A stretch of 64,000 nt of DNA from Armatimonadota bacterium (GTDB lineage: Bacteria; Armatimonadota; HRBIN16): assembly GCA_026003195.1 (NCBI GenBank), contig BPGU01000001.1:434001-498000 (forward strand), read 5' to 3'. How positions within the stretch are numbered: the first letter of the stretch is position 1; the number at the start of each line of letters is the position of its first letter. Made by a program: the position numbers and the translations under genes. The notes below the pieces were generated by a model. It had not been told where the DNA came from. It did not search any database and worked only from the letters and a program-made list of their open reading frames with translations. This document shows positions 14,483 to 20,591 of the stretch, one piece after another.

Positions 14483-14538
14483 TGGCGCGCCCGGAGGGAC
14501 TCGAACCCCCAACCCTCAGATCCGAAGTCTGATGCTCT
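14483..14538 (-). repeat. attL: 56-bp copy of the tRNA-Arg 3' half
   Basis: This stretch is identical over 56 bases to 20516-20571. It spans from the encoded CCA through the T arm to the anticodon stem of tRNA-Arg. It lacks the 5' half, so it is not a functional tRNA. It is the left boundary of the integrated element. Confidence 0.93.
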
Positions 14539-14585
14539 GGAAAAGCCGTTTCAACACAAGATGTAGTAGCCAGAACCGCGTATGC

Positions 14586-14601
14586 ACACAACATGTTGTG
14601 T
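14586..14601. promoter_or_regulatory. Palindrome near attL, candidate integrase/Xis arm site
   Basis: ACACAACATGTTGTGT is a perfect 16-bp palindrome. A nearly identical CACAACATCTTGTG lies at 20467-20480 beside attR. The related CACAAGATG occurs at 14555-14563 and 20509-20517. Confidence 0.45.
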
Positions 14602-14782
14602 TCCGTGATGTGACAGTTTCGACGAATCTGATGCTCATCCAGCAGCGAGTGCTTGACAGCGGGGACTTTTTGCGGTAACCTGTACCCGCGTTCAGCACCC
14701 GCACTGCTGGACGCCACGCCTGCCGGTGCTCTACCACCGCGCAGGCACTTTCATCATAGCATTCTCTGCAAAGTATGTCAAG

Positions 14783-15040
14783 ATGGAAGAGACTGATGTG
14801 CCAGAACCCGAAGACCCTGAGGCAGAAGAAGCCTTCCACCTGCTCCTGACGCGCCTCACGTTGGAACAGTGCCTGCGCTCTATTCCTGACGGCGTGCAGT
14901 GGCTCCAACTGGTGCAGGCAGGGCATAGCGCATGGGAAGCCGCCACCTTGCTCCGACGCAATCGCGCATGGCTGCAAAGGGTGCGGGAGGCGTGCAGACA
15001 GGCTCTGGAGGACTACCAATCGCCATACGCCTGCGGGTGA
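14783..15040 (+). CDS. Small hypothetical protein of the element, possible HTH
   Basis: An 85-residue reading frame from ATG 14783, with an acidic N-terminus (MEETDVPEPEDPEAEEAF). The C-terminal part (SAWEAATLLRRNRAWLQRVREA) resembles a region 4/HTH of phage late-gene activators, but this is weak. It is the only element gene on the plus strand. It overlaps the 3' end of the TerS-like gene by 28 bases, tail to tail. No clear ribosome binding site is seen. An upstream in-frame ATG at 14726 is possible. It may be a regulator or a chance frame. Confidence 0.45.
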   Translation: MEETDVPEPEDPEAEEAFHLLLTRLTLEQCLRSIPDGVQWLQLVQAGHSAWEAATLLRRNRAWLQRVREACRQALEDYQSPYACG

Positions 15041-15330
15041 CCTTCACCGACCACTTCCACGCGCTCGACGAATCCTTCGTCCTTGCCCAGCGTCTTGAGC
15101 ACAAACAGAATCGCCCATGCTTTGCCCTCGTGCACAGCCTTCACCAGTCCCTCATAGGCGTCGCCTACGAGTGCTGCTCGTCCCTCTTCCAAAGCCTCTC
15201 GCAGTCTGCTGTGCCGTCGCAGACGCTTGTAGAGGGCTTGACGGCTGATGCCCAGTTTGCGTGCCACTGCCGACAGATTGCCCGACAAGGCTTGTAGTTC
15301 TTGTGCGATTTGCTCTGTGGTCGCTTTCAT
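15013..15330 (-). CDS. Small-terminase-like HTH protein
   Basis: A 105-residue protein with an N-terminal helix-turn-helix (NLSAVARKLGISRQALYKRL). A helical segment ending VLKTLGKDEGFVER follows, a pattern common at the end of small terminase (TerS)-type and related phage HTH proteins. GGAGG lies upstream of ATG 15330. TerS recognises packaging sites on phage DNA; phage-inducible islands carry their own TerS to redirect helper packaging. No large terminase subunit is encoded in the element. It could instead be a plain regulator. It is the last gene of the leftward operon. Confidence 0.65.
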   Translation of the reverse strand: MKATTEQIAQELQALSGNLSAVARKLGISRQALYKRLRRHSRLREALEEGRAALVGDAYEGLVKAVHEGKAWAILFVLKTLGKDEGFVERVEVVGEGHPQAYGDW

Positions 15331-15383
15331 CGTCTGCCTCCGTGAAGGTTGACAAGGTTGACACCCTTAAGCACTTATTTCCC

Positions 15384-15695
15384 TCACAGCAACCTGCCCT
15401 GAGGCTCGTCGGTGAGGGCTTCCAACTGGCGCAAGACCTCTGTGGCGTCCCCTACCAGCACCACTGCACCACAAGCCTGCAGGCTTTCCAGTTCGCGCCT
15501 CTGCGGTGGGGACAGTCTGGCGTGCCTGCCTGTCTTGACCTCAATCGCAATCAACCTGCCTTGCCAGCAGGCGAAGATGTCAGGCAGTCCGCGTCGCTGC
15601 CCCCACGTGCCACGAATGCGAGCACACCATGCACCACGCTTCTGCAGGTAGCGCACGATTGCCTGTGCGTGCTGACTGTGTGCTGAGGTTGCCAT
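15384..15695 (-). CDS. VRR-NUC domain nuclease
   Basis: A 103-residue protein of the PD-(D/E)XK VRR-NUC family. The core GLPDIFACWQGRLIAIEVKT supplies the catalytic Asp, Glu and Lys, and LSPPQRRELESL is the following family helix. Such small proteins occur in phages and mobile elements, often beside replication genes, and are thought to act on branched DNA or in packaging. It starts at ATG 15695, 4 bases after the preceding gene's stop, so the two are co-transcribed. Length is normal for stand-alone VRR-NUC proteins. Confidence 0.88.
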   Translation of the reverse strand: MATSAHSQHAQAIVRYLQKRGAWCARIRGTWGQRRGLPDIFACWQGRLIAIEVKTGRHARLSPPQRRELESLQACGAVVLVGDATEVLRQLEALTDEPQGRLL

Positions 15696-15699
15696 CCGC

Positions 15700-16047
15700 T
15701 CAGAACAGCCTGCCCTGCTTCGGGTCTTCTCGGTGCCACAGGTTCAACGGCAGGGCAATCTGCTCCCCATGCCCGCGCTGGATGCGGATGCCCTTCTGCC
15801 ACAGCGTCGCCAGTGGCGCAGTGTAGGTGATGCCGTTCTCCACGTCGTGCACCTCCACCAGCGACGCCCCTGCCTCATGTGCCTGCTCCAGAATGTTGCG
15901 CTCGAATGCCCACGCTGGGGGCTGTCGCAACTGGTGGACGCTACGGCGCACACGACGCACCAGTCGGAAGCCATTCACCACACAACCGCTGTGCCTGCCG
16001 TCAGCGAGGCGCAGGTGCACAGTGTCGTTCCGTTGAATCGTTTGCAT
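15700..16047 (-). CDS. Hypothetical protein of the element
   Basis: A 115-residue protein from ATG 16047, preceded by AAAGGAG; an upstream in-frame ATG (16068) overlaps that site and is less likely. The sequence is basic in the middle (RLVRRVRRSVHQLRQ) and contains ENGITYTAPLATLW, but no family is recognised. It sits between the SSB-like protein and the VRR-NUC nuclease, so a role in element replication or recombination is plausible. No catalytic motif is visible. Confidence 0.7.
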   Translation of the reverse strand: MQTIQRNDTVHLRLADGRHSGCVVNGFRLVRRVRRSVHQLRQPPAWAFERNILEQAHEAGASLVEVHDVENGITYTAPLATLWQKGIRIQRGHGEQIALPLNLWHREDPKQGRLF

Positions 16048-16121
16048 GTTCCTAACAACTCCTTTCATGTGTGTTGTGCTTGGGGGGCGGGCAGGCGTGC
16101 GCGCCTGCCCGCTTCCCTCTC

Positions 16122-16592
16122 TTACGCCTGTGCAAACGGGTCGTCAGGGTCTTCGTCGTCTGCCATCTCGTAGAACCCCTGACTGGTGGCAGGAACCGCT
16201 ACCATGCCATGCCTGACACGCTGACCGACCAGCACGCGCCGAATGGGCAGAATGTCGGTCACCCGCGCAAACTCGCGCCCGTCAACGGTCTGCTTCATCT
16301 GCACCACCGCACGGGCACGCTTGCCCTTCAGCGCGTCTAAGTCAATGGTGTCGCCTTGCGCGTAGGGCTTGCCCGCGAACGCTGCTGCCCACTTCACCGC
16401 CTTCGCGTTGACCGCCGTGCTGGCGTTCGTCCACGCTCGCAGTTCCGTGCCCTCATACTCACCTTCTGCCACGCGCAACTGCCACACGAACTGCTCGCCG
16501 TAGGCTCCTTGCTGCTCCCGCACGTCCACCAGTTCCACCGTGTAGACGTCGTCAGGCAAGGTCTGTGCTTGTGCTGTCACTACCAGTTTCAT
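16122..16592 (-). CDS. Putative single-stranded-DNA-binding protein (OB-fold-like)
   Basis: A 156-residue protein rich in beta-strand patterns (VYTVELVDVREQQGAYGEQF, EGTELRAWTNAS, VQMKQTVDGREFARVTDILP). Its acidic C-terminal tail (MADDEDPDDPFAQA) is like the protein-recruiting tip of SSBs. It is similar in style to DUF669/phage single-strand-binding proteins. AAAGGAGG lies about 8 bases before ATG 16592. The gene follows the primase-helicase by 39 bases, which supports a replication role. The assignment rests on architecture and context rather than a diagnostic motif. Confidence 0.55.
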   Translation of the reverse strand: MKLVVTAQAQTLPDDVYTVELVDVREQQGAYGEQFVWQLRVAEGEYEGTELRAWTNASTAVNAKAVKWAAAFAGKPYAQGDTIDLDALKGKRARAVVQMKQTVDGREFARVTDILPIRRVLVGQRVRHGMVAVPATSQGFYEMADDEDPDDPFAQA

Positions 16593-16631
16593 GTCGTTTA
16601 CCTCCTTTGCGTTGTGTCGGTTTACCGTCGG

Positions 16632-19043
16632 TCAAGTTAGTGTGCCTATGTCAACCGCCGATGACGGGAATTGCCTGCGCGTATTGCATCCCACACACTC
16701 CCAGTCCCCTTCGTGGGTCGGCGTGTGCAGCATCGAACACCCGCACACCTCACACCACGCTGCCACACCGTCGCGCAGCGGGATGACTGCAGTACGGTAG
16801 TCAGGGATGCCGTCAGGGATGTCGTCCTCAACCAGGAACTCCATCATGACAGGCTCCTCATCACTCAGAGTGTCTGCTGGGAACTCCATCACAGCTTCAT
16901 CATCGCTAACGTTTTGTACTGGTCGGGCGTTAGCGGCGGGGTCTGGATTGTTACCACCTGCATCCAACTCACTACCATCTACTGTAAACAGTGTAGAAGT
17001 TGTAGAACCTGTAGAAGTTGTAGAACCTGTAGAAGTCGTAGAAGTTGGGGTGTTTTCGGTGTTGGCCACTTCTACAGGTTCTACAGGTTCTACGGTGGGG
17101 TTATAGTAATGCGTTTTTTCGGTGTTGGCTACTTCTACAGGTTCTACAGGTTCTACGGGGTTTATACAGTAATGATTTCCGTCGAAGAGCAGTTCGCCTG
17201 CAGCCTTCATTTTCGCCAGCAGGTTGTACGTTGTGTGGAAGTTCTTCCCCAAGTAATCGGCGATCTGCTTTGCTTTCGCTCTTCCGCCCAGTTCGGTGAT
17301 TGCTTGCAGAATGGCTTTCCGCTCCTCACTCATGCGCACGGTCTTGGCGTCACCCTCTACATACCACTTCCCCGCTGTGAACGTGATTGCCCACTCGCCT
17401 TCGTGCTCAATGTCTCTGCCCGTCACGAACAGCGTGCCACTCATCTCACCACGTGGCTTGCTCAGCGTCAGCACAGCGTCCACCGCGCCGGTTAGTCCTG
17501 TACTGCCACTGACGCGCATGAGAGGGTCTTCGTTGGGTGCTTTGCTCTCATGGTGCACCGCGACCAGCGTCACACCCTCTGCTACCGCGAGGTCTTTCAA
17601 CAGCGCGAAGGCGTCATAGTCGGACTGGTAGACGCCATCGTTGCGCCTGCGTCGGGGCAGGATGCGTGCCACCACGTCCACAAACACCACTTCGGCTTGC
17701 GTCTCCTGAATCAACTGGCGCAACTCGTCAGCACCGCCTCTGTCCAGTGGCGAAAGTTCTGTCACGATGTGGAAGGCGTCGGGGTCGTATGCCGTGCCCA
17801 GCAGTTGGATGCGTCGCTGGAGCCGACGCAGTCCATCTTCCAGAGCACAATACAGCACCCGACGTTTGGGTAGTGGCTCGTCCAGCCCCAGAGCGAAACC
17901 GCCCCCACTGAGCGCACAAGCAATCTGCAGGGCGAACCAGCTCTTGCCCACTTTGGGGCGTCCCACCAGTAAGGTCAGTCCACCTTCCGGCAGGATGTCC
18001 GGCACTAAGTAAGTCAGCGGGTCAAACTCTTTCGCCATCAGTTCGCGCAGACTGATTGTCCGACGCGGTGCTGGCTGGGGCACTGCAGCGTTACCATACT
18101 GCTGGCGCAGAGCTTTCGCAGCTGCATGGAAGTCGCCGCCATGCTCCAGCAGGGTGTATACTGCGAATGGGGAATAAGCGCGTCCTGCCTCAAAGGGTGG
18201 CGCGTTCGTGCTGAACACATACAGCGTGCCCAACTGGGGATGCCACGAAGCACTCACTCCTCGCTCTTTGCCCGGACGGGTCAGGTAGATGTTGCCCTCG
18301 CGCCCATTGCCTGCAACACACCAACCGTGCTTTTGGAGCAGATTCAGCACGTCGGCTTCTGCGTTGAACCTGTCGCCTACGCGCTGTGCTTCACCCGTCA
18401 CGCGCAGGGGTTCAGGGGGTTTGCGGTCCAGGCTGTGGGCGATGCACAGCAGGTCTTCTACCTGCTCACTGCTCAGCAGGGGTGCATCGGTCAGGTCGTG
18501 GCGAACCATGCGGTAAGGCTTGCCTGCAGGATGAACCTGTGCCGGCGACGGTGGCACGATGGCATACGCACCTTCACCGCGAATCTCAACCAGGGTGTTG
18601 CCCGCTTCATCTCGTGCCAGCACTTGCGTTGGCAGTGGCTCTGGGGTGCGGAAGTATAAGTGCTTGCCACCGCTCGGTGTCTCCGCGCATGGCAGCCGTT
18701 CCAGCAGTTCAGGGTCATGCTCCCGCAGCAGTTCGGCGAACGCGCTCCACGCGCTGGGGTCGTCAAAGTCCATCACCGCCAGATTGCTGGACACCTTGCC
18801 TGCCACCACAGCGACACCCAGCACATGCCCGTTGCCAAACCACTGGCGCAGGTCGGCTTCGGTGGGCAGTTCGCCCTGGTAACGCTTCCAGCTGGAAACC
18901 GCCGGTGCTTTGCTGCCGTCAGCGCGGATGGGCAGGATGCTCAAGCCAGCCCGCTGGTAGCGGAGCGCGGTAGAAAGAAGTTCATTGCTTGCCCACGCCG
19001 TCGTCTGCTCGGGGGGGACGCTGGACGGGTTAACGGTTTTCAT
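16632..19043 (-). CDS. Primase-polymerase / RecA-like helicase fusion with a C-terminal zinc finger (element replicase)
   Basis: An 803-residue replication protein. The N-terminal third is a bifunctional primase-polymerase domain (AEP fold) with the acidic motif VMDFDD (about residues 90-95) and SGGKHLYFR (about 125-133). The centre is a RepA/AAA_25-type ATPase with Walker A GRPKVGKSW (about 358-366), Walker B VVFVDVV, and AVHHESKAP. A winged-helix-like segment, a Thr/Ser/Val/Glu/Pro repeat linker (about 629-683) and a CxxC...CxxC zinc finger near residues 761-785 follow. The ATG at 19043 overlaps the HTH gene's end by 14 bases; a GGAGG lies upstream. The protein would prime and unwind the element's DNA, as pri-rep proteins do in phage satellites and plasmids. 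Confidence 0.9.
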   Translation of the reverse strand: MKTVNPSSVPPEQTTAWASNELLSTALRYQRAGLSILPIRADGSKAPAVSSWKRYQGELPTEADLRQWFGNGHVLGVAVVAGKVSSNLAVMDFDDPSAWSAFAELLREHDPELLERLPCAETPSGGKHLYFRTPEPLPTQVLARDEAGNTLVEIRGEGAYAIVPPSPAQVHPAGKPYRMVRHDLTDAPLLSSEQVEDLLCIAHSLDRKPPEPLRVTGEAQRVGDRFNAEADVLNLLQKHGWCVAGNGREGNIYLTRPGKERGVSASWHPQLGTLYVFSTNAPPFEAGRAYSPFAVYTLLEHGGDFHAAAKALRQQYGNAAVPQPAPRRTISLRELMAKEFDPLTYLVPDILPEGGLTLLVGRPKVGKSWFALQIACALSGGGFALGLDEPLPKRRVLYCALEDGLRRLQRRIQLLGTAYDPDAFHIVTELSPLDRGGADELRQLIQETQAEVVFVDVVARILPRRRRNDGVYQSDYDAFALLKDLAVAEGVTLVAVHHESKAPNEDPLMRVSGSTGLTGAVDAVLTLSKPRGEMSGTLFVTGRDIEHEGEWAITFTAGKWYVEGDAKTVRMSEERKAILQAITELGGRAKAKQIADYLGKNFHTTYNLLAKMKAAGELLFDGNHYCINPVEPVEPVEVANTEKTHYYNPTVEPVEPVEVANTENTPTSTTSTGSTTSTGSTTSTLFTVDGSELDAGGNNPDPAANARPVQNVSDDEAVMEFPADTLSDEEPVMMEFLVEDDIPDGIPDYRTAVIPLRDGVAAWCEVCGCSMLHTPTHEGDWECVGCNTRRQFPSSAVDIGTLT
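16993..17046. repeat. Six tandem 9-bp repeats GTAGAANNY
   Basis: Six contiguous units (GTAGAAGTT, GTAGAACCT, GTAGAAGTT, GTAGAACCT, GTAGAAGTC, GTAGAAGTT) lie inside the replicase gene. Three inverted units follow at 17067-17093 and three more at 17130-17156. The two inverted blocks are part of a larger direct repeat of about 60 bp (17053-17112 and 17115-17174). Confidence 0.85.
17053..17174. repeat. Tandem duplication of a ~60-bp unit in the replicase gene
   Basis: Two near-identical copies each contain TTTTCGGTGTTGGC, three inverted 9-bp units and a GGGGTT...AGTAATG end. In the protein this gives two copies of PVEPVEVANTE. Confidence 0.8.
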
Positions 19044-19227
19044 GTTGGCGCCCCACCTCCACCGATTGCATAGCCTCAAACCACCGCTCAAAAGCCAGGC
19101 GTGGGACGCGACGGCGTCCGCCCAAATAGACGCTGGGCAGTTCTCCAGAGTTGAGCAGCTTCCTTGCAGTTGCCTCGCACACACCGAGTGCCCGCGCAAC
19201 GTCACGAAGATTGAGAAAATCTCGCAT
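19030..19227 (-). CDS. Excisionase-like helix-turn-helix protein
   Basis: A 65-residue MerR/HTH_17-type protein. DVARALGVCEATARKLLNSG forms the recognition part, followed by a wing with the typical GGRRRVPRLAFERWF. Such proteins serve as excisionases (Xis) or AlpA-type activators in integrative elements. The ATG at 19227 has a strong AGGAGGTG site 7-13 bases upstream. The gene overlaps the replicase start by 14 bases, so the two are co-expressed. The upstream AT-rich region with an inverted repeat (19304-19333) is a likely operator. Confidence 0.85.
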   Translation of the reverse strand: MRDFLNLRDVARALGVCEATARKLLNSGELPSVYLGGRRRVPRLAFERWFEAMQSVEVGRQHENR

Positions 19228-19303
19228 GGTTTCACCTCCTATGAGGTGCACCACTGTGTTGGGGGAAAGGACGCAGGAGAGAAGCGTTCCAGATGTAAAA
19301 TCG

Positions 19304-19333
19304 GTATATTGATTTTATATGCAATCAGTATAT
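19304..19333. promoter_or_regulatory. AT-rich inverted repeat, possible operator
   Basis: GTATATTGATT and AATCAGTATAT form an 11-bp inverted repeat with two mismatches around an 8-base centre, just upstream of the xis-like/replicase operon. Confidence 0.4.
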
Positions 19334-19362
19334 TGTGTTTATATTCAAAACTGTGGTATAAT
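19333..19362 (+). promoter_or_regulatory. Extended -10 promoter of the candidate small RNA
   Basis: TTGTGT (19333-19338), an 18-base spacer and TATAAT (19357-19362). It points rightward, away from the replicase operon and toward no protein-coding start. Confidence 0.45.
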
Positions 19363-19374
19363 CAAGTTACGAAG

Positions 19375-19431
19375 AGTTACTGTTGTAACCTCAGGCTACC
19401 GTTCCAACCTGGGGTTACCGTTCTCTCCTGC
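19375..19431. repeat. Three 19-bp iteron-like tandem repeats
   Basis: Units begin at 19375, 19394 and 19413, exactly 19 bases apart, sharing the core G(T/C)TAC(C/T)GTT. They flank an AT-rich stretch (about 19296-19365), the usual layout of an iteron-type replication origin. Confidence 0.55.
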
Positions 19432-19467
19432 GCCTCTGTGCCCCCAACACAGAGGCGCATCTTTCTT
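19430..19467 (+). terminator. Terminator between the sRNA region and integrase
   Basis: A perfect 11-bp stem (GCGCCTCTGTG / CACAGAGGCGC), loop CCCCCAA, then ATCTTTCTT. The T-rich side follows the plus strand, which indicates rightward transcripts; the opposite side is not T-rich. Confidence 0.65.
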
Positions 19468-19516
19468 ACCATAAGTATACCACAAATTAGCGTTCCTGTC
19501 TACCTATTTTGTCTGT

Positions 19517-20443
19517 TCAGTGCATCTTCAGCATTCTCAACGGGCTATGCTGCTGGTGCGCTTGCCGTAAGTCGGTTTCCACCAGTTGCACGTAGTGCTT
19601 GAGCATGGCGAAGTCCCGATGCCCCAGCAGTTCGCGCAGATGCTCCAAACTCATGCCGGAGCGCAGTGAGTAAATGGCGAACGTCCGCCGAAACACGTGA
19701 CACCCCAGATGCTCCTTCAGTCCGGCACGCTTGCCCACGCGCTGGATGGCTTCCTGCACACCGTGCACGGTCAACGGGTTGCCGTCTACACCTACCCACA
19801 GTGGAGATTCAGCGTCCAACCGGTGGGGGCAGCTCTGCACATACTTGCGGATGGCTAACCGTGTCTGTGCGCTCAAGCACACAAGCCGGGTGCGTCGGCT
19901 CTTACCGTTCACCGTGAAGGTCTCCGTCGTGCCGTCCGCAACGGTCATCTGCACCAGTTCGCCCACGCGCAATCCCGTGTCCAGCAGCGTCAGCACCAGA
20001 GCGTGGTCCCGTCGGCGGAGCCAGTCGTTGCCCGCGCACGCTTGCAGGATGCGTCGAATCTCGTCTTCGGTCAGCGGCGGCTTGCAGACCGTGTCGGTCT
20101 TCGGTGCAGACACTTTCCGCATGGGGTCAATGTTCAGCAGTTCGTTGCGCACGAGCCACCGGAAGAAAGCACGCAGTGCTCTGTAGTCGGCGTGCACAGT
20201 GTGCAGGCTGGACACTTGCTGCTGGCGGTGGAGCAAGTACCGGCGCAGCGTGAAGGGGTCAATCTGCTCCAGTGGCATGTTCACGGCGTGCGCAAATCGG
20301 GCGAGTGTGTCCCGGTAGAAGCGCACGGTTCGTGGTCTCAGTCCACGTGCTTGCGCGTCTTCGCAGAACAGTTCCACCGCAGTGTGAAGAGAATACGCGC
20401 TGTTGACAGTGTCGCGAATCTGAAGGTTTGTGCTTGTGTGCAT
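19517..20443 (-). CDS. Tyrosine-recombinase integrase
   Basis: A 308-residue site-specific recombinase. The N-terminal SAM-like core-binding domain (about residues 15-105) includes TVRFYRDTLARFAHAVN. The catalytic domain has the Arg of DTGLRVGELVQM, the HVFRR box (HxxR), the His of LLGHRDF and the nucleophile Tyr in LKHYVQL. All catalytic residues are present, so it is probably active. The ATG at 20443 has AAAGGAG upstream, and longer in-frame extensions would read into the tRNA. It lies next to attR and the tRNA-Arg gene that it would use as target. The candidate arm sites overlap its promoter region, which suggests autoregulation. Confidence 0.95.
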   Translation of the reverse strand: MHTSTNLQIRDTVNSAYSLHTAVELFCEDAQARGLRPRTVRFYRDTLARFAHAVNMPLEQIDPFTLRRYLLHRQQQVSSLHTVHADYRALRAFFRWLVRNELLNIDPMRKVSAPKTDTVCKPPLTEDEIRRILQACAGNDWLRRRDHALVLTLLDTGLRVGELVQMTVADGTTETFTVNGKSRRTRLVCLSAQTRLAIRKYVQSCPHRLDAESPLWVGVDGNPLTVHGVQEAIQRVGKRAGLKEHLGCHVFRRTFAIYSLRSGMSLEHLRELLGHRDFAMLKHYVQLVETDLRQAHQQHSPLRMLKMH

Positions 20444-20466
20444 GGTGTTGTGCTCCTTTCGTGGAA

Positions 20467-20517
20467 CACAACATCTTGTGGTGATTCGGCGGAATCTGGC
20501 GTGTGGGGCACAAGATG
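20467..20517. promoter_or_regulatory. Candidate arm-type sites beside attR
   Basis: CACAACATCTTGTG (20467-20480), whose right half is CACAAGATG inverted, and a direct CACAAGATG (20509-20517) abut the att core. Matching motifs occur near attL at 14555-14563 and 14586-14601. Confidence 0.45.
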
Positions 20518-20571
20518 GCGCGCCCGGAGGGACTCGAACCCCCAACCCTCAGATCCGAAGTCTGATGCTCT
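20516..20571 (-). repeat. attR: 56-bp direct repeat within tRNA-Arg
   Basis: Identical to 14483-14538. It forms the 3' part of the intact tRNA and the right boundary of the element. Confidence 0.93.
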
Positions 20572-20591
20572 ATCCATTGAGCTACGGGCGC
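20516..20591 (-). tRNA. tRNA-Arg (anticodon UCG)
   Basis: A 76-nt cloverleaf. The acceptor stem is GCGCCCG/CGGGCGC and the D arm is GCTC...GAGC. The anticodon stem TCAGA/TCTGA holds loop CTTCGGA (anticodon TCG, reading CGA), and the T arm GGGGG/CCCTC holds loop TTCGAGT. Discriminator G and CCA are encoded. Its 3' 56 bases are the integration site of the element. Confidence 0.97.

Follow-up and report, generated by a model that had tools for sequence, protein, structure and literature searches.

Locus and gene content

The 64,000-nucleotide stretch analysed here (the window; contig BPGU01000001.1 of the Armatimonadota bacterium assembly GCA_026003195.1, forward-strand positions 434,001 to 498,000) comes from a hot-spring bacterium and contains at positions 14483-20571 a compact element bounded by direct repeats of 56 bp (14483-14538 and 20516-20571), which are 100% identical. 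The distance between the repeats gives an element size of 6,033 bp. The minus strand encodes an integrase (Int), an AlpA/excisionase (Xis)-like helix-turn-helix (HTH) protein, a primase-polymerase (PrimPol)-helicase, a single-stranded-DNA-binding (SSB)-like protein, a protein termed orf115, a VRR-NUC/Hjc-type nuclease, and a protein resembling the terminase small subunit (TerS), and the plus strand encodes a small HTH-like protein. Proteins were assigned by Pfam, PHROG, and PADLOC profile searches of the window proteins. The features are as follows.

14483..14538, minus strand: attachment (att) copy, a displaced 56-bp 3' fragment of tRNA-Arg at the far end; repeat 100% identical, partial Rfam tRNA match
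14783..15040, plus strand: small HTH-like protein, 85 aa from a conserved ATG (HTH_23 0.0082); the open reading frame (ORF) may reach 14726
15013..15330, minus strand: TerS-like protein, 105 aa, N-terminal HTH and helical hairpin (HTH_8 1e-7; PHROG TerS 1.8e-4)
15384..15695, minus strand: VRR-NUC/Hjc-type nuclease, Holliday-junction resolvase-like (Pfam Hjc 1.6e-6, VRR_NUC 3.2e-5; PHROG endonuclease 5.1e-14)
15700..16047, minus strand: orf115, 115 aa, conserved in siblings, C-terminal QGRLF; the longest ORF, of 122 aa, extends to 16068
16122..16592, minus strand: SSB-like protein (DUF669-type), 156 aa (PHROG SSB 0.0023)
16632..19043, minus strand: replication (rep) protein, 803 aa, PrimPol, RepA-like AAA_25 helicase, and C-terminal zinc finger (Pfam, PHROG)
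19030..19254, minus strand: AlpA/excisionase-like HTH protein, 65-74 aa (HTH_17 5.4e-12; phrog_66, excisionase and transcriptional regulator, 2.7e-9)
19255..19516, no strand: intergenic region, AT-richer (GC content down to ~0.51) and containing the inverted repeats I6 and I20; a candidate control region or origin
19517..20443, minus strand: tyrosine recombinase (integrase), 308 aa (Pfam Phage_integrase 8.5e-29)
20516..20591, minus strand: intact tRNA-Arg(TCG), the insertion site (ARAGORN; Rfam 71.6 bits), containing the second att copy at 20516-20571

All of these genes are intact, with dN/dS values ranging from 0.07 to 0.38. Within the element, no match was obtained to capsid, portal, tail, terminase large subunit (TerL), or any other virion structural family (Pfam, PHROG), and no relaxase was matched among its eight proteins (Pfam, PHROG; oriT was not looked for). 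PADLOC gave no defence genes for the window proteins tested or for most cargo genes of the sibling elements described below; sibling L011 has one weak CARF match. The initial annotation, made from the letters of the window, had described perfect tRNA repeats, a complete tyrosine integrase beside an intact tRNA, an Xis-like gene, a primase-polymerase/helicase with a zinc finger, a VRR-NUC nuclease, and a lack of structural genes, all of which were borne out by the searches, the zinc finger as a Cys4 motif read from the sequence. Its SSB-like protein stands as a conserved gene, 86-93% identical across three siblings of the same genome, but the profile match remains weak (0.0023). The gene list given there was incomplete, as orf115 and the plus-strand HTH gene had been missed although both are conserved in siblings.

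Insertion site and its occupancy

The element is evidently inserted in the 3' part of tRNA-Arg(TCG) by its own tyrosine recombinase, with the tRNA rebuilt. No structured RNA other than tRNA was found at Rfam gathering thresholds. Composition is no marker of the element because its GC content is about the same as that of the surroundings; it is marked by the repeats and by comparative data. Ten genomes of the genus were queried with the left flank. In genome G007, the left gene, a single intact tRNA-Arg, and the right gene are contiguous, and both the element and the far att copy (14483-14538) are missing; the joined window flanks are 88% identical to this locus over the junction. As the G007 flanks meet around a single intact tRNA, a chance origin of the repeats is excluded. 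Genomes G001, G002, and G004 likewise have the tRNA beside the left-flank gene and no element. Thus, the empty site that the initial annotation had proposed to look for exists in four genus genomes in which the tRNA is assembled. In genome G003, this tRNA is occupied by a sibling element, with the same right-flank gene next to it; the Int of this sibling is 79% identical to that of the window, whereas its rep and TerS cassette differ. No prophage was seen at tRNA-Arg(TCG) among the 10 genomes. The comparison indicates site-specific integration with turnover at this locus. The annotation had also placed the DNA in a probable Armatimonadota genome, consistent with the deposition of relatives under the names Armatimonadetes bacterium RSWS16 and HRbin16.

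TerS-like gene

Cumulative evidence from profiles, gene context, cross-matching, fold, and selection supports assignment of the window protein to a packaging-type TerS family. Three IMG/VR contigs (L040, L041, and L042) encode relatives that are 45%, 31%, and 22% identical to the protein in the aligned region; in all three, a terL-like gene follows immediately downstream, and that of L040 encodes Terminase_3 (1.6e-31). In Vibrio phage 1.213.O, a weak TerS homologue (4e-3) overlaps the annotated terL. For a second type, TerS-B, most ORFs that follow relatives in IMG/VR are terminases: among 34 such ORFs, 3 of them A-type, Terminase_6N was matched by 14, Terminase_6C by 9, and Terminase_3 by 6, counts that overlap one another. 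The profile of the window TerS family also matches the TerS-B cassette found in L009, L013, and other siblings (6e-5 to 5e-4), which itself matches PHROG TerS at 6.7e-24. The structure model consists of an HTH and a helical hairpin (pLDDT 73.5), and its viral fold matches include terminase small subunits. With a dN/dS of 0.07 between the window and sibling L045, the gene is under purifying selection. The divergent TerS alignment is too variable for a pattern scan. The small plus-strand HTH gene, 88% identical in L045 (genome G005) and 44-53% identical in L052/L053, always adjoins the same TerS type in relatives and has a dN/dS of 0.32.

Most full-length siblings carry a terS-type gene. Other TerS types lie near the 3' ends of L014 (1.6e-23), L186 (7.4e-15), L156 (1.4e-9), L184 (1.9e-6), L187 (1.2e-6), and L183 (1.4e-5; all PHROG). 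Elements evidently exchange their TerS types as cassettes, including elements that occupy the same tRNA site.

Replication module and orf115

The rep protein matches Pfam Prim-Pol (2e-22) and AAA_25 (4e-26) as well as PHROG DNA polymerase/primase (9.1e-48). Against PLSDB plasmids, it gave weak, domain-level matches only, and a PrimPol search of the genome contigs returned no usable relatives. A low-complexity linker ahead of the zinc finger is encoded at 16983-17174, where the rep gene contains 9-bp units in tandem and a 62-bp duplication. Phage contig L193 encodes a protein similar to the SSB-like one close to a PrimPol gene.

The protein orf115 has no match in Pfam, PHROG, PADLOC, or phage records and no convincing one in PDB sequences, and it is absent from 72,556 plasmid records (PLSDB). 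Its C-terminus reads QGRLF in the window and QPTLF, QPSLF, QLSLF, QLALF, QLTLF, QLPLPL, or QLNMF in relatives; in an 11-member alignment, the Q and L/F of QxxLF are invariant or nearly so, and in more distant homologues the motif is weaker (QLRLE and similar). The consensus for binding the bacterial beta clamp is QL[S/D]LF. As the C-terminal motif fits this consensus, orf115 probably recruits the host sliding clamp. The structure model (pLDDT 84.3) gave weak, nuclease-like fold matches in which no catalytic triad is recognisable, so that the clamp-motif reading alone was retained. The neighbouring VRR-NUC/Hjc nuclease ends in EPQGRLL.

Family of sibling elements

The initial annotation had treated the element as a single compact oddity, whereas it proved to be one of a large modular family. 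Siblings in the same genome (G000) were found by DNA search and wider relatives with SSB and orf115 profiles; genes in siblings were called with a home-made codon-usage caller, which is adequate for gene content and not for exact starts. Besides the window element, the genome contains five siblings (6.6-14.2 kb), each at another tRNA gene, namely L009 at tRNA-Gly(GCC), L010 at tRNA-Arg(CCT), L012 at tRNA-Met, L013 at tRNA-Thr, and L011 at tRNA-Gly(TCC), and a related 13.3-kb island. This island (L014; contig C2, tRNA-Leu, 13,254 bp) has a UvrD-like helicase gene, the TerS gene mentioned above, and a gene for a 1,685-aa protein that by eye resembles a fused primase and DNA polymerase. With the profiles, the family was also detected in other genomes of the host genus. 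Among 291 Armatimonadota genomes, which represent 156 genera, 20 genomes from 10 genera gave matches, as did 31 of the 298 Chloroflexota genomes that were sampled from the Anaerolinea class. Most siblings measure 5.5-8.8 kb and some longer ones 12-14 kb; the majority of those examined end in direct repeats of 27-140 bp. Genome G266, assembled in one contig, holds three elements of ~7 kb, and the isolate Anaerolinea thermolimosa IMO-1 holds two siblings, one of 7,626 bp at tRNA-Pro (L156) and one of 6,619 bp at tRNA-Val (L158). In G005, one 8.4-kb element appears at three contig ends (L046, L047, and L048; 99.7-99.9% identical), which implies at least two recent copies and hence recent mobility.

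The contexts of orf115 in Chloroflexota are broader: 5 of 12 sampled loci fall within islands of 4.3-10.7 kb that adjoin tRNA genes and are bounded by direct repeats, and the rest have ambiguous contexts or lie near serine recombinases. Therefore, the presence of orf115 alone would not prove a satellite. One such island (L230:6628-10982), of 4,267 bp between duplicated tRNA-Cys genes, carries an integrase, an orf115 homologue, and an initiator-like protein, and no terS was recognised in it.

Some siblings carry additional genes. In module-B satellites (L009:10902-11675, L046:6313-6954), an amidase-like gene with a weak PHROG lysis match (0.0017) lies beside TerS, which is unusual for PICI-like elements (see the last section). 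Module-C satellites (L010:7815-8487, L011:12587-13193, L044:6672-7353) have two terminal small genes resembling sigma factors on the opposite strand. L011 (G000:C1:535544-549832) is a 14.2-kb hybrid, the left 7.1 kb of which is 97% identical to a G005 satellite, while its right part carries genes that share 56% identity with a late gene found on phage contig C14.

Resident phages and possible helpers

Seven TerL loci (PF03237) were found in the host genome, one solitary on the chromosome (contig C3) and the others in phage-like contigs or a prophage. Genes for TerL, a portal protein, and a major capsid protein are present on contig C8 (34.6 kb), and the prophage at C1:656k has TerS, TerL, portal-like, and capsid genes. 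Contig C14 carries TerL and late genes. As the tRNA-Gly core is present there in an attP-like copy, with int on one side and a late gene on the other, the contig is evidently a free phage form. Its integrase is 35% identical to the window Int and 45% identical to a sibling Int, its PrimPol is related, and it has the tRNA-Gly att core in common with siblings L011 and L044. DNA of the C8 nuclease gene is found in L009, L044, and L047 at 87-89% identity over 187-292 bp (blastn; L009 292 bp, 87%; L044 204 bp, 89%), and the window has an exact 32-bp stretch in common with C8 at this gene. In C1:656k, a gene just upstream of TerS-TerL is homologous (54%) to the small sigma-like gene of module C, suggesting a possible link to a helper through late transcription; the HTH part of the TerS of this prophage is 40% identical to the window TerS over 43 aa (8e-4). 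The DNA common to siblings and resident phages is circumstantial evidence of long co-residence and not proof of a helper pair.

Contig C5 (L079, 202,060 bp) has TerL and other phage-like genes and may represent a jumbo phage, to which C7 (L078, 35,164 bp) is a related partial genome. The solitary C3 gene (G000:C3:420910-421500; L081:8275-9621, minus strand) lies among housekeeping genes without phage neighbours and is possibly a domesticated terminase-type ATPase/nuclease.

Interpretation of the element

Taken together, the att repeats, the empty site, the same-site sibling, the identity of TerS, and the lack of structural genes make it probable that the window element is a minimal phage satellite, as the initial annotation had proposed. 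The siblings at many tRNA genes, their recent mobility, the swapping of TerS cassettes, and the resident tailed phages that have DNA and an att core in common with siblings lead to the same conclusion. The annotation had named three findings that would speak against a satellite: capsid or tail genes belonging to the element, relatives that are conjugative plasmids, and a TerS-like protein of a non-packaging HTH family. There are no such structural genes, the relatives lack signs of conjugative plasmids (no relaxase, weak rep matches, and no orf115 matches in plasmids), and the TerS relatives upstream of terL and the TerS-B cross-match argue for packaging.

Several observations weigh against this assignment. 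The PHROG score of the window TerS is weak by itself (1.8e-4), the PDB search with its fold was not significant (best match, phage protein phBC6A51), and terS was not recognised in siblings L010, L055, L182, L185, and L230. In IMG/VR, no contig carrying the SSB-like protein was found and orf115 occurs on one distant contig only. Helper phages had been another suggestion of the initial annotation; resident phages with TerL do exist, but no pac or cos site in common was found when the elements were compared with them by blastn, the matches being mainly coding and att sequences. The host genome is a metagenome-assembled genome with 4.8% contamination, so its phage contigs could be misbinned; the common DNA and att core tie C8 and C14 to the host. 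In each of the nine other genomes of the genus, PF03237 matches a single gene, the solitary one, and no further TerL of the families tested turned up, so that a resident helper is evidently not general across the genus. As congeners without a detected resident phage TerL also hold satellites, infecting helpers would be involved as well. Finally, packaging in helper particles is deduced from genes.

A small integrative plasmid or genomic island, which the initial annotation had held to be the main alternative, would replicate autonomously, move by natural transformation or passive transduction, and use the TerS-like HTH protein as a regulator. The replication module is the largest part of the element, PrimPol/RepA domains are present on some plasmids, and the 4.27-kb L230 has a replication-initiator-like protein; the lack of a recognisable terS in some siblings also leaves this alternative some probability. 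It is weakened, to the point of being unlikely, by the absence of orf115 from all 72,556 plasmid records, the rep matches at domain level only, and the lack of any relaxase or partition gene seen, as well as by the TerS relatives that adjoin terL in phages and the unrelated TerS types at the same 3' position in siblings, which would be unexpected for a plain regulator. Decay of a temperate phage that lost its structural genes is much less probable. Although the early genes are phage-type, C14 combines related Int and PrimPol with the same tRNA-Gly att, and the hybrid L011 retains phage-like late genes, the compact gene order and narrow size range recur at many tRNA genes in many genera of two phyla, the genes are intact with the low dN/dS values given above, and near-identical multiple copies exist in G005. 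Descent from C14-like phages is possible, whereas the data do not support decay in progress. Conjugative transfer as an integrative mobilizable element would fit the tRNA site, the integrase, and the small size, yet it is hardly credible given that a relaxase is absent from the window element and none is evident in siblings (oriT, as stated, was not looked for), with packaging-type genes present instead.

The satellite would operate as follows. Upon helper infection or induction, the AlpA-like protein and Int would excise the element, and the PrimPol-helicase of the element, together with the clamp and polymerase of the host, would copy the circle into concatemers, which the element nuclease would trim. 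The satellite TerS would then steer the helper TerL to satellite DNA, so that helper capsids are filled; at ~6 kb against 34.6 kb for the resident phage, several copies per capsid would be likely, by analogy with the phage-inducible chromosomal minimalist islands (PICMI) discussed below. In a new host, Int would reinsert the DNA. For the family as a whole, we lean, with somewhat less assurance, towards an undescribed and widespread group of ultra-small, TerS-carrying satellites of Armatimonadota and Chloroflexota, having their own core (SSB-like protein, clamp-motif protein, and VRR nuclease) and swappable TerS and late cassettes, with several members often present in a genome, each at a different tRNA gene, and with infecting or resident helpers packaging them as concatemers. 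If so, minimal satellites of ~6-8 kb would be routine in these thermophile-rich phyla, several per genome, and the smallest members would bear on the minimum number of genes needed to parasitise a tailed phage. TerS cassette swapping at a fixed chromosomal site would show satellites changing helpers, and the Anaerolinea thermolimosa isolate with its two siblings offers a possible experimental entry.

Comparison with known phage satellites

Most of what is known about phage satellites comes from Proteobacteria, Firmicutes, and certain marine groups. A search of the open-access literature gave no record of them in Armatimonadota, and the papers retrieved place none in Chloroflexota. Phage-inducible chromosomal islands (PICIs) are defined by an integrase, a replication module, and a master transcriptional regulator in conserved order, a unique att site never held by prophages, the absence of structural or lytic genes, a size of ~12-15 kb, and helper-induced excision, replication, and packaging (PMC6092414). 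The likeness to PICIs noted by the initial annotation holds for the module set and the lack of structural genes, but not for membership by these published criteria. The window element has Int, PrimPol-helicase, and an AlpA-like HTH protein, the last in a presumed regulatory role; int, an alpA-like gene, and a primase-replicase, with terS in some, also make up PICIs such as SaPI and the Gram-negative EcCICFT073 (PMC6092414). The element contains no structural or lytic genes, while module-B siblings have the amidase-like gene and L011 has phage-like late genes, and dependence on a helper terminase is probable, as in PICIs. In contrast to PICIs, it is half their size or less at 6,033 bp, its rep, SSB, and nuclease set is another one, and the att sites of the family are tRNA genes, the tRNA-Gly one being common to a phage, which leaves the uniqueness of the att site doubtful for the family.

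PICMI are found in Vibrionaceae; PICMI115 has 6,110 bp and six genes, no annotated terS, and a site beside fis, and PICMI are packaged as concatemers in full-size helper capsids (PMC10803314). The window element resembles them in economy, with ~6 kb, a reduced content around an int, alpA-like, and primase core, and no capsid or capsid-remodelling genes. It differs in having TerS-like, SSB-like, nuclease, and clamp-motif genes, in lying in a tRNA gene instead of at fis, and in belonging to other phyla. Unlike cf-PICIs, no capsid genes of its own were found in the element. VEIMEs and tycheposons, as described where they are cited in PMC10803314 and PMC11389934, are integrative and thought to move in phage particles; the likeness is one of description, and their hosts are marine bacteria, unlike here. 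Phage C14 of the same genome encodes an Int and a PrimPol related to those of the family, along with the tRNA-Gly att core seen in L011/L044, but it carries its own TerL and late genes. As size and gene set differ and one att site of the family is common to a phage, the element, which by its gene content would work like a PICI or PICMI, appears to be a member of neither and is best filed as representing a new satellite family.

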